This document shows, piece by piece, positions 1,022 to 8,793 of a DNA stretch of 23,189 nucleotides. The notes below the pieces were generated by a model. That model saw only the letters and a list, made by a program, of their open reading frames with translations, did no database searches and had not been told where the DNA came from. Numbering within the stretch: position 1 is the stretch's first letter; each line of letters opens with the position of its first letter. The position numbers and the translations under genes are program-made. The stretch is from a virus: positions 1 through 23,189 of the IMG/VR virus record IMGVR_UViG_3300044731_000902; one strand, 5' to 3'.

Positions 1022-1337
1022 AGGAACCAGTTTCGAAACCTTCATAGTGAACTATCTTGCACAGTTCTACCCTCATGTGGAACGGCGAACGTTACACGGG
1101 ATGAACGACAAAGGTGATATCGCTGGCACAGACCCGCGACTTGTTTGGGAATGCAAAAACCAGAAGGTTCTCAACTTTTCAACATGGTTGCATGAAGCAC
1201 AAGTTGAACGTGACAACGCTAACGCTGAACTTGGAATAGTTGTGGCTAAGCGTCGCAGTTACGGCAACCCAGCAGACCAGTATGCGGTCTTAAGACTTGA
1301 AGACTTGATAACCATTTTAAAGAAAGCAGGTTACTGA
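1002..1337 (+). CDS. PD-(D/E)XK nuclease, Holliday-junction-resolvase-like
   Basis: A 111-residue protein with the archaeal Hjc / VRR-NUC arrangement: KGTSFE near the N-terminus with Glu12, an ERR strand (27-29), then GD39I followed ten residues later by E50-C-K52. Asp39, Glu50 and Lys52 form the expected PD-(D/E)XK metal and catalytic set. Such enzymes cut branched DNA or clean up recombination intermediates before packaging. The start is GTG at 1002, with an AGGAG ribosome site at 990-994 inside the preceding gene; the stop overlaps the next start (TGATG). Family is well supported; whether it resolves Holliday junctions or acts as another endonuclease cannot be told. Confidence 0.66.
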   Translation: MSKERAKGTSFETFIVNYLAQFYPHVERRTLHGMNDKGDIAGTDPRLVWECKNQKVLNFSTWLHEAQVERDNANAELGIVVAKRRSYGNPADQYAVLRLEDLITILKKAGY

Positions 1338-5361: not shown

Positions 5362-5559
5362 CTACTTTGTTACTTTGATGTCGCTTGGTTCAAACATGAT
5401 GTCAATCACTTCCAAACCTGCGTACTTTCCCTCTGTGCTTATGAAGCCCACAAAGATGAAGTCTCCCTCATCGTCTGAGCCAATCTCTGAGATAGTGCCA
5501 GTCCGCCCACAGTATGCGTGAAACTGATTGGTGACTATTGCTTTGTCTCCTTCTTTCAT
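5362..5559 (-). CDS. Small SH3/KOW-like beta protein (65 aa)
   Basis: The 65 residues begin KEGDKAIVTNQFHAYCGRTG followed by TISEIGSDDEGDFIFVGF: a strand, a Gly-rich turn and paired strands, as in SH3-like or KOW domains that bind nucleic acid or peptides. The gene has a strong ribosome site (AGGGGAAAGC). Its 5' leader holds copy 1 of a structured RNA element, so its expression may be controlled at the RNA level. Assignment to the SH3 fold is inference; target unknown. Confidence 0.58.
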   Translation of the reverse strand: MKEGDKAIVTNQFHAYCGRTGTISEIGSDDEGDFIFVGFISTEGKYAGLEVIDIMFEPSDIKVTK

Positions 5560-5580
5560 TGCTTTCCCCTTCTAGTAGTT

Positions 5581-5645
5581 ATGTGCTTCGGTCTTACGAC
5601 CTTGTGGGTGTCGGGGACTTGAACCCCGATGTCTGCTAGTCACCC
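5581..5645 (-). ncRNA. Structured leader RNA element, copy 1 (T-arm-like)
   Basis: On the minus strand this segment folds as P1 (GGGTG, 5645-5641, with CACCC, 5610-5606), a 12-base linker, hairpin P2 (CGGGG-TTCAAGT-CCCCG, 5628-5612), one unpaired A (5611), the closing P1 strand, ACAA, and hairpin P3 (GGTC-GTAA-GACC, 5601-5590) with a GNRA loop, then GAAGCACATAA. P2 has the exact tRNA T-loop pattern TTCAAGT. The element fills the gap between two genes and ends about 20 bases before a strong ribosome site. No U-run follows, so it is not an intrinsic terminator. The same fold occurs at 8351-8418 and 8107-8181. Confidence 0.6.
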
Positions 5646-5652
5646 TGCCTAC

Positions 5653-5817
5653 TTACTCCACTATCCGTGACTCGTCTACAATTGCTAACCCTTCGTAGAC
5701 GCTCGTGTTATCTCGTTTAATCATGTAACGCAGATGAGAGTCGTAACCCTCGACAACGCCACTAATTAAGTTGCCTTCACTATCGGCATAGGTAACTCGT
5801 GTGCCTTCAGTTTTCAT
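5653..5817 (-). CDS. Small SH3-like beta protein (54 aa)
   Basis: Start set at ATG 5817, with a GAGGTGA ribosome site, giving 54 residues; a longer frame to 5889 would run through the promoter and is rejected. The sequence GTRVTYADSEGNLISGVVEG, then HLRYMIKRDNTSVYEGLAIV, reads as a small five-strand barrel of SH3-like type. It is the first gene after the promoter at 5855-5883 and so probably heads the leftward run to 4050. Function unknown. Confidence 0.55.
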   Translation of the reverse strand: MKTEGTRVTYADSEGNLISGVVEGYDSHLRYMIKRDNTSVYEGLAIVDESRIVE

Positions 5818-5841: not shown

Positions 5842-5868
5842 ACTTGTAGATACAAGTGTATCACACTT
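5842..5868 (-). promoter_or_regulatory. Stacked palindromes over -10 box and start site
   Basis: A perfect palindrome ACTTGTA-GA-TACAAGT (5842-5857) covers the expected transcription start, and a second perfect one AAGTGT-ATC-ACACTT (5854-5868) covers the -10 box. Both are suitable for a dimeric repressor. The second is partly kept over the -10 of the promoter at 7610-7638 (CTGTATCACACTT). Confidence 0.45.
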
Positions 5869-5883
5869 AGTTACCCTTGTCAA
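5855..5883 (-). promoter_or_regulatory. Sigma-70-type promoter for leftward genes
   Basis: On the minus strand, TTGACA (5883-5878), a 17-base spacer and TACACT (5860-5855) form a near-consensus housekeeping promoter. It lies 38 bases before the ribosome-site-proximal start at 5817. A near-duplicate occurs at 7610-7638 with the same spacer and a shared AAGTGTGATACA around the -10. Confidence 0.75.
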
Positions 5884-5893
5884 GTCCAAACGA

Positions 5894-5909
5894 TGTGACC
5901 TTCGTCACA
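5894..5909. promoter_or_regulatory. CRP/GlxR-like palindrome, proximal copy
   Basis: TGTGACCTTCGTCACA is a perfect match to TGTGA-N6-TCACA, the site of CRP-family regulators such as actinobacterial GlxR/Cmr. Its centre is 23.5 bases upstream of the far -35 edge (5878), the same distance as at the promoter 7610-7638. Identity of the binding protein is inference. Confidence 0.6.
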
Positions 5910-7609: not shown

Positions 7610-7638
7610 ACTGTATCACACTTAATTAGTGTTGTCAA
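7610..7638 (-). promoter_or_regulatory. Sigma-70-type promoter, near-duplicate of 5855-5883
   Basis: TTGACA (7638-7633), 17-base spacer, TACAGT (7615-7610) on the minus strand. Similarity to the promoter at 5855-5883 extends from the CRP-like site through the -10, about 55 bases, including GACTTGACAA and TAAGTGTGATACA, so the unit was probably duplicated. Confidence 0.72.
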
Positions 7639-7648
7639 GTCTAAGCAA

Positions 7649-7664
7649 TGTGTCATTCGTCACT
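7649..7664. promoter_or_regulatory. CRP/GlxR-like palindrome, degenerate copy
   Basis: TGTGTCATTCGTCACT agrees with the sites at 5894 and 5915 at 13 of 16 positions. Its centre is 23.5 bases from the far -35 edge, as at 5894-5909. It overlaps the stop codon of the small gene at 7660-7764, which may explain why it is less perfect. Confidence 0.5.
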
Positions 7665-8106: not shown

Positions 8107-8181
8107 TTGTTTTGTTATCACGACACTATTGTGTCGCTAGTCCCTAGTCCGAATTGAATCGGCACGCCCAAAACGCTAGGG
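8107..8181 (-). ncRNA. Structured leader RNA element, copy 3
   Basis: Minus-strand fold: P1 (CCCTAG, 8181-8176, with CTAGGG, 8147-8142), a 13-base linker (CGTTTTGGGCGTG), hairpin P2 (CCGA-TTCAAT-TCGG, 8162-8149), one unpaired A (8148), closing P1, ACTAG joint, and hairpin P3 (CGACAC-AATA-GTGTCG, 8136-8121). The linker GTTTTG (8174-8169) can pair with a downstream CAAAAC (8114-8109), giving a pseudoknot. Bases TTCCCCTA (8184-8177) are complementary to the ribosome site TAGGGGAA (8104-8097) of the next gene, so P1 and the ribosome site could be alternative partners. Confidence 0.58.
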
Positions 8182-8350: not shown

Positions 8351-8418
8351 TATGTTCTTCAGTCTTGCGACTTTGTGCCTAGTGTCGCTATGACGCGACT
8401 ACCCCCAAGAGGCTAGGC
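8351..8418 (-). ncRNA. Structured leader RNA element, copy 2
   Basis: Minus-strand fold: P1 (GCCTAG, 8418-8413, with CTAGGC, 8382-8377), a 13-base linker (CCTCTTGGGGGTA), hairpin P2 (GTCGC-GTCATA-GCGAC, 8399-8384), one unpaired A (8383), closing P1, ACAA, hairpin P3 (AGTC-GCAA-GACT, 8372-8361) with a GNRA loop, then GAAGAACATAA. P3 and the tail closely match copy 1, with the closing pair changed from G-C to A-T; the linker matches copy 3 (CNTNTTGGGNGTR). It ends about 20 bases before the ribosome site of the gene at 8192-8329. Confidence 0.6.
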
Positions 8419-8702: not shown

Positions 8703-8723
8703 CCACCAAACACAATATTCTTT

Positions 8724-8739
8724 TATGACACTCGTCACA
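8724..8739. promoter_or_regulatory. CRP/GlxR-like palindrome, third promoter
   Basis: TATGACACTCGTCACA agrees with the 5894-5909 site at 13 of 16 positions. It lies upstream of the promoter at 8674-8702 and five bases from the GTAAGG palindrome at 8745-8760. Confidence 0.45.
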
Positions 8740-8744
8740 CACAT

Positions 8745-8760
8745 GTAAGGCTAACCTAAC
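8745..8760. promoter_or_regulatory. GTTAGG-type palindrome, second copy
   Basis: GTAAGGCTAACCTAAC differs from the site at 5933-5948 at two of 16 positions and matches the DtxR/IdeR box better on the minus strand (TTAGGTTAGCCTTAC). Order and closeness to the CRP-like site are the same as at the other copy. Confidence 0.45.
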
Positions 8761-8763
8761 TTT

Positions 8764-8793
8764 ACATAACTATTTAAACTTGACATAACTATT
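8764..8793. repeat. 11-base direct repeat, 19-base period
   Basis: ACATAACTATT occurs at 8764-8774 and again at 8783-8793, in an AT-rich segment between the leftward promoter and the non-coding region. The second copy begins inside a TTGACA (8780-8785) that could be the -35 box of a rightward promoter; the -10 at the right distance (CATTTA) is poor. Confidence 0.5.

Follow-up and report, generated by a model that had tools for sequence, protein, structure and literature searches.

A short RNA fold that resembles the acceptor and T-arm half of a tRNA, and whose 3′ side is like that of tRNAs encoded without CCA, recurs in actinobacteriophage genomes; it lies between genes, on the coding strand and just behind stop codons, and its stems and loop contacts covary. 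The copy analyzed here (copy 1) is part of a 23-kb viral record (IMGVR_UViG_3300044731_000902, referred to as the window over its full 23,189 nucleotides), which comes from a tailed phage, given its terminase, portal, and single-strand annealing protein genes. Comparison of sequences suggests that actinophages may use the host tRNA-processing machinery to cut or protect their mRNAs. The interpretation that we favor, tentatively and at somewhat less than an even chance, is that the element is a mini-tRNA between genes of a polycistronic phage mRNA, read by host tRNA 3′-end processing.

RESULTS

Fold and surroundings of copy 1

Copy 1 occupies positions 5645 to 5604 on the minus strand and consists of a 5-bp stem (P1), an 11-nt linker, and a 6-bp stem carrying a T-loop (P2), followed by R-C (Table 1). 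The small ORF upstream of it, for which a PHROG comparison gave no match, ends with a TAA (5655-5653) 7 nt ahead of P1. From that stop, the minus strand reads GTAGGCA, GGGTG, ACTAGCAGACA, TCGGGG, TTCAAGT, CCCCGA, CACCC, AC, AA, and GGTCGTAAGACC, then AAGGGG and the ATG at 5559.

The original prediction was that this segment mimics the acceptor-plus-T-arm half of a tRNA, and the near-invariant T-loop letters, the GG of the linker, and R73-C74 support it strongly. Its T-arm, CGGGG-TTCAAGT-CCCCG with the exact T-loop sequence, is indeed present at 5628-5612 on the minus strand, as are the neighboring five-pair stem (GGGTG/CACCC, 5645-5641/5610-5606) and the ACAA after the closing strand. The linker needed correction: it has 11 rather than 12 bases, with an extra T-A pair that brings P2 to 6 bp. 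Nor is it only a spacer in place of the D- and anticodon arms, since covariation reveals a pair within it and a pseudoknot with the T-loop.

Table 1. Features of copy 1, its flanks, and the other two copies in the window
Feature	Position	Strand	Basis or remarks
54-aa small ORF, function unassigned	5653..5817	(-)	upstream of copy 1
P1 5′ strand GGGTG, acceptor-like, G at +1	5641..5645	(-)	sequence, fold, and model
11-nt D-loop-like linker ACTAGCAGACA, J1-J11	5630..5640	(-)	covariation
P2 T-arm TCGGGG-TTCAAGT-CCCCGA, 6 bp, 7-nt T-loop	5611..5629	(-)	fold and model
P1 3′ strand CACCC	5606..5610	(-)	fold and model
A73-C74-like AC after acceptor stem (R73-C74 of tRNA), then AA	5604..5605	(-)	sequence
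Second hairpin GGTC-GTAA-GACC, 2 nt past C74	5590..5601	(-)	compensatory changes in relatives
Shine-Dalgarno-like AAGGGG of downstream gene	5566..5571	(-)	sequence
65-aa small ORF, function unassigned	5362..5559	(-)	downstream of copy 1; ATG at 5559
Copy 3, class-B element	8140..8181	(-)	P1 CCCTAG/CTAGGG, D-hairpin CG(T)...(G)CG, T-arm CCGA-TTCAAT-TCGG, AC
Hairpin CGACAC-AATA-GTGTCG after class-B element	8121..8136	(-)	fold and comparison
Copy 2, degenerate or divergent	8375..8418	(-)	P1 GCCTAG/CTAGGC, P2 GTCGC/GCGAC, loop GTCATA, AC
Second hairpin of copy 2, AGTC-GCAA-GACT	8361..8372	(-)	position and motif as after copy 1; 0 expected

By folding alone, the thermodynamic stability of copy 1 is unremarkable (z = -1.75). 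The 17-nt T-arm, with up to three mismatches allowed, occurs once in the window, against 0.05 occurrences expected. A covariance model (R1) built from 118 relatives, the window copy included, scores copy 1 at 63.9 bits (E = 1.4e-13); because copy 1 is one of those 118 training rows, it is the BLAST searches and the IMG/VR pattern tests described below that provide independent evidence.

It had also been proposed that tRNA and tmRNA models be run on the segment. ARAGORN called no tRNA and no tmRNA in the window, and the element has no anticodon arm. Rfam gave no family at the gathering threshold; the best weak match was to mascRNA-menRNA (RF01684; 17.7 bits, against a threshold of 42.5), with only the T-arm aligned. 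On these results, a tRNA or tmRNA gene and a known riboswitch or other Rfam family were both rejected.

Class-A consensus and covariation

Relatives of copy 1 share the consensus G-P1(5) A-N-Y-G-G-C-A-N-R-C-A P2(6; GG closing) TTCRAGY CC... P1′ R-C-D, which we call class A. Copy 1 belongs to it by its 5-bp P1, 11-nt linker, 6-bp P2 with a T-loop, and R-C end. Both sides change in 12 of the 13 pairs of the class-A alignment A2, for which the covariation score is 0.707, compared to 0.171 when shuffled; the P1 and P2 counts in it are inflated, since pairing was a requirement of the descriptor. A test free of this bias came from searching IMG/VR with a pattern whose only fixed letters were those of the linker and T-loop, P1 pairing being left free. 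Among the matches listed, there were 142 distinct sites; all five P1 pairs form in 88% of these, compared to 17% with shuffled partners and no more than 3% when the partners were slid. In 135 of the 142, positions 59-60 are GT, matching AC at J9-J10, and R73-C74 is present in 126.

The linker is itself structured. J2 pairs with J8 (CG 61, AT 40, GC 23, TA 3; n = 130), J9 with T-loop position 60 (AT 114, GC 14), and J10 with position 59 (CG 124, GC 3), and a chromosomal copy (L163) supplies a further compensated pair, C-G, at J9-60. Class A has, in addition to the J2-J8 pair, a 2-bp pseudoknot between linker and T-loop. The loop letters T54-T55-C56-R57-A58 hardly vary, nor do the closing pairs GG-TTC...CC. 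These five loop letters on the G53-C61 pair, together with a linker GG equivalent to G18-G19, are what one looks for in a tRNA elbow. The GG is found in 99 to 100% of 186 elements, a figure to which selection by descriptor and pattern contributed; in copy 1 the letters are AG. Covariation at J9-J10/60-59 and J2-J8 supports a model in which the D-loop-like linker GG would dock on the T-loop as in the tRNA elbow.

The geometry is also fixed. P1 and P2 together make 11 layers in 225 elements (5/11/6), and their lengths compensate each other so that the sum is nearly always 11. G at +1, paired with C72, is found in 92% of class-A elements, and T at -1 in 3.7%. On the 3′ side, 218 distinct class-A elements have R73 in 97% and C74 in 96%, and C at the next position (C75) in 3.7%.

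Placement between genes

A search for a stem, a linker, and a T-loop stem by means of a structural descriptor gave 43 elements across the window and eight phage regions and none in reversed controls, and all 43 are on the strand of the flanking genes. Of the 41 coding-strand elements in seven annotated regions, 39 fall in gaps, the other two overlapping gene starts that are probably mis-set. In the annotated phage regions, a class-A fold sits in the majority of the spaces between small genes; of the annotated gaps of 60 to 250 nt, 37 of 42 carry an element, and model R1 adds one.

The distance from stop codon to P1 is 6 to 8 nt in 98 of 202 distinct elements, versus 3 of 190 random positions, and is below 6 nt in only 4 of the 202. 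This is the spacing expected if the fold were placed as near the stop as a terminating ribosome permits. The distances cover all three frames, which rules out a conserved readthrough product. An ORF-based test did not discriminate on this point, with some open frame running through the element in 95 of 203 cases.

A second hairpin generally follows, its first pair lying 1 to 4 nt past C74 in 42 of 43 elements, with a mean of -10.2 kcal/mol, compared to -5.3 kcal/mol for shuffled sequence. After copy 1 come AC and this hairpin with no U run, unlike an intrinsic terminator. Among relatives of the window, upstream genes are seen to be exchanged right at the stop codon, with the element and the downstream gene conserved. 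Three relatives (L139-L141) keep the element beside the upstream stop-like codon and have a promoter-like sequence instead of the second hairpin, so the element need not belong to the downstream leader. Nor is it essential at each gene, as it is absent at the same locus in L134 to L137.

In two of the latter, L134 and L136, a promoter-like sequence stands where the element would be, and it is similar to two 52-nt repeats of the window (5857-5908 and 7612-7663). These repeats are 83% identical, lie upstream of minus-strand genes, carry TTGACA-like and TGTGATACA-like hexamers on that strand, and are probably phage early promoters.

Copies 2 and 3

Copy 3 belongs to a second, structurally different, covarying class with a T-loop (class B). 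It had been noted that copy 3 (8181-8142) keeps TTCAAT in its loop, and this holds well beyond the window: the 6-nt T-loop (consensus TTCRAT) is conserved in all relatives found, and the stems covary (score of 0.449, compared to 0.093 when shuffled; 15 sequences). P2 pairs in all 29 distinct IMG/VR copies, 28 of which end in R-C followed by a base other than C, and the modal stop spacing is 7 nt. Copy 2 retains the stems P1 and P2, the AC that follows them, and the hairpin further on, and its loop, GTCATA, is not a T-loop, nor is that of its relatives. T-loop-less relatives, which the original prediction named as evidence against it, were thus found for copy 2 only and not for classes A and B. 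Model R1 detects neither copy 2 nor copy 3.

Distribution in phages and bacteria

When the region around copy 1 was compared by BLAST, only the 47 to 55 nt of the element matched, at 85 to 92% identity; the matches lie in distant Mycobacterium phages (Send513, Papyrus, Oaker, Predator, and Konstantine) and Streptomyces phages, in stretches between genes that carry no annotation. A consensus query reached 833 places in 141 phage records (Streptomyces, Mycobacterium, and Gordonia phages), which among the matches listed lie under no annotated feature, and a second query added Microbacterium and Arthrobacter phages and cyanophage KBS-P-1A. Copy numbers ranged from 2 to 13 per genome in the eight element-bearing phages examined (Send513, 13; Izzy, 10; phiScoe15, 9; Oaker, 8; Predator, 7; Godpower, 7; Morgana, 5; Musetta, 2); phiC31 has none. 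Plasmids gave no BLAST match, and a plasmid-borne family was rejected. The element is rare in bacterial chromosomes: in a species-genome collection, the exact pattern matched once, in Jiangella, next to a probable major capsid gene and apparently within a prophage, and R1 matched in 4 of 297 Actinomycetota genomes.

DISCUSSION

The 3′ side of the element gives the strongest clue to mechanism and is best considered next to the tRNA genes of its hosts. In a sample of 68 tRNA genes from three actinobacterial genomes (loci L201-L270), 45 are without CCA. Every one of these carries C at position 74, as though the gene always supplied the first C of the tail, which fits the published cut between the Cs. 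In Streptomyces coelicolor, 53 of 65 tRNAs lack CCA, and most of those that encode it are, in maps at nucleotide resolution, cut between the Cs (PMC4681348); a cut at this place has likewise been reported for P. acnes (PMC3848588). P. acnes is reported to be without tRNase Z; candidates for the cutting enzyme are tRNase Z and another actinobacterial nuclease. In Mycobacterium tuberculosis, CCA is added to more than half of the tRNA species by an essential CCA-adding enzyme, and RNase Z is present (PMC10673834). For tRNase Z, an enzyme that takes its measure from the elbow, CCA is an anti-determinant (PMC4919913, PMC7479834).

The element shares with a CCA-less pre-tRNA the stacked T-arm and acceptor, the discriminator base followed by C74, and the missing CCA, with a stack one layer short. 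Its invariant C lies 13 nt from the T-loop, the distance of the discriminator base in a tRNA, and both the C74 sequence rule and a 13-nt ruler predict a cut after the C (5604/5603). Among the roles suggested originally, a mark for mRNA processing fits best, with the 3′ side after C74 as the better predicted site; RNase P, also suggested then, fits less well, given the 11 layers and the avoidance of C75.

In the best-supported explanation, the element would serve as a processing and stability mark for host tRNA 3′-end maturation, read by tRNase Z or by the actinobacterial nuclease that cuts tRNAs between C74 and C75. If the RNA were cut behind the invariant C, the upstream mRNA would end, shortly past its stop codon, in a compact tRNA-like structure. 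This mini-tRNA end could be finished by the CCA-adding enzyme and would resist 3′ exonucleases, and the downstream mRNA would start 0 to 3 nt before a protective 5′ hairpin. One can envision phage operons punctuated by mini-tRNAs, much as tRNAs punctuate mitochondrial transcripts. One counterpoint is the stack of 11 bp versus 12 in tRNA, which enzymes measuring from the elbow may refuse or cut one nucleotide off. Others are the relatives without the element at the same locus, the Mu-like phage L061 with no clear second hairpin, the lost T-loop of copy 2, and the reported absence of tRNase Z from P. acnes. We consider it doubtful that the whole chain operates, in which host maturation would cut each decoding-free mini-tRNA after C74, the CCA enzyme would cap it, and the next mRNA would start at the hairpin. 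If it did, CCA-tailed phage mRNAs would represent a form of mRNA maturation previously undescribed in bacteria and their viruses.

The main rival, which we think unlikely, is that the element is never cut and acts as a roadblock, its knotted fold stopping PNPase or RNase R from the 3′ side or RNase J from the 5′ side and so stabilizing single-gene mRNAs. It would then resemble a REP element or be a bacterial counterpart of viral xrRNAs, and its likeness to tRNA would reflect a stable fold only. The compact pseudoknotted structure, its place right after the stop codon and ahead of another hairpin, and the tandem arrays that some phages carry outside gene gaps all suit such a role. It leaves unexplained why two classes of different structure both have R73-C74 almost without exception and avoid C75, and why the T-loop is strictly identical down to its unpaired letters. 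A signal to the ribosome or polymerase could tune termination, reinitiation, or readthrough, with the fold at the ribosome entry while the stop codon occupies the A site, or could act by antitermination or attenuation. Pseudoknots for readthrough and frameshifting have spacers like the 6 to 8 nt of the sharp stop-to-P1 peak; yet spacings of 6, 7, and 8 represent all frames, so that no conserved extension is possible, no U tract follows, and tandem copies occur in non-coding arrays. We judge this signal distinctly improbable.

RNase P might instead recognize the elbow and acceptor stack and cut 5′ of P1, providing the downstream mRNA with a structured 5′ end, which we find quite unlikely. The T-loop, the D-loop-like GG, G+1 (92%) with C72, R73, and C74 would all suit this enzyme, and it accepts T-loop-bearing RNAs without a D-loop (PMC4919913). 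However, its elbow-to-cut distance is fixed (PMC4919913), and the 225 elements offer 5 + 6 = 11 layers rather than a 12-layer stack; the RCC(A) of a full 3′ side is incomplete in both classes, C75 being rare in class A (3.7%) and 28 of 29 class-B copies ending in R-C-notC. After such a cut, the 3′ end of the upstream mRNA would also lie bare, 7 nt past the stop. The missing U at -1 was dropped as an argument here, as the sampled host tRNAs mostly have C at -1. Exchange of upstream genes exactly at the stop, with the element and downstream gene conserved, would also be seen if the element were a recombination cassette, giving homology for gene swaps at gene boundaries with the RNA fold incidental. 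We regard that as very improbable, since the strong compensatory covariation of stems and pseudoknot needs selection on RNA, and gene exchange at this place can be a side effect. Hardly credible, and rejected because the copies have independent covarying stems, is a tRNA-gene remnant or an attP core derived from a tRNA of the host. The T-arm letters do match tRNA (the Rfam mascRNA T-arm match has E = 0.22, below threshold); against this, the window gave no tRNA call and no Rfam match, multiple copies with different stems share one 5/11/6 geometry, and R1 matches are confined to 4 of the 297 Actinomycetota genomes even though all bacteria carry tRNAs.

The individual ideas behind processing by tRNA enzymes have precedents. 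mascRNA and menRNA, the tRNA-like RNAs at the 3′ ends of MALAT1 and NEAT1, are processed by tRNA enzymes and, like the element, place a tRNA-like fold with T-arm and acceptor stem inside a long transcript, but they occur at eukaryotic lncRNA 3′ ends, in one copy and with other arms present. The tRNA-like domain of tmRNA, also processed by tRNA enzymes, is similarly an upper tRNA half with a T-arm and a D-loop lacking a proper D-stem, but it has a 12-layer stack, stands alone, and is charged with alanine, whereas the phage element has 11 layers and lies between genes. As in mitochondrial punctuation, intergenic tRNA-like folds would release single mRNAs via tRNA-processing enzymes; there the folds are whole functional tRNAs, and here they are half-tRNAs of double-stranded DNA phages with no decoding part.

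Host enzymes process other phage RNAs, among them phi80 M3, P1/P7 C4, and P4 CI RNA (by RNase P) and the T7 intercistronic sites (by RNase III); these involve other folds or enzymes and no repeated tRNA-elbow family. Plant-virus tRNA-like structures and bacterial Y RNA modules share the viral or non-coding mimicry of tRNA, but are found at 3′ genome ends or as stand-alone RNAs, not as intercistronic elements of 42 nt. Cluster A stoperators and Cluster K start-associated sequences of mycobacteriophages are also short repeated intergenic elements in one orientation; they are DNA repressor sites or start-site motifs and have no covarying T-loop fold. The element is undescribed in the full-text literature searched, which comprised open-access papers. 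While tRNA mimicry and tRNA punctuation are already known, half-tRNAs that lack a decoding part and recur between the genes of a phage appear to be a new form of them.

This structured RNA, which BLAST places in over 140 records of sequenced phages, had stayed unannotated. Processing at it would offer a testable account of how polycistronic actinophage transcripts might become stable gene-sized mRNAs, would link phage mRNA fate to host tRNA-processing enzymes, and would bear on the actinobacterial cut between the Cs of CCA. If this is confirmed, the 42-nt module could be a portable processing signal for Mycobacterium and Streptomyces expression vectors.

Related folds also occur in other settings. 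A Mu-like phage contig (L061) has two class-A elements (8717-8765 and 1072-1120, minus strand), one of them immediately ahead of the transposase gene; a clear second hairpin is lacking. Tandem class-A elements appear about every 115 nt in non-coding stretches of two high-GC phage contigs (L060:9890-11363 and L014:6613-7130, both minus strand), separated by spacers of degenerate GGCNN pentamers; ARAGORN miscalls one of these elements as tRNA-Ala. Cyanophage KBS-P-1A (L167:2440-2580) has, in a 596-nt gap between annotated genes, a related T-loop fold with a hairpin-forming D-arm and then a hairpin, and its 3′ side ends in A-T, not R-C. Finally, an AT-rich 67-kb record (IMGVR_UViG_3300035517_000474, L055:7150-9070, plus strand), in whose array ARAGORN called no tRNA, has about 13 units, most with a GUGA-tetraloop hairpin and then a top-half tRNA with a 7-bp acceptor, a 5-bp T-arm, and a GG-containing linker; the array may represent the half-tRNA idea at the size of a tRNA (12 layers).
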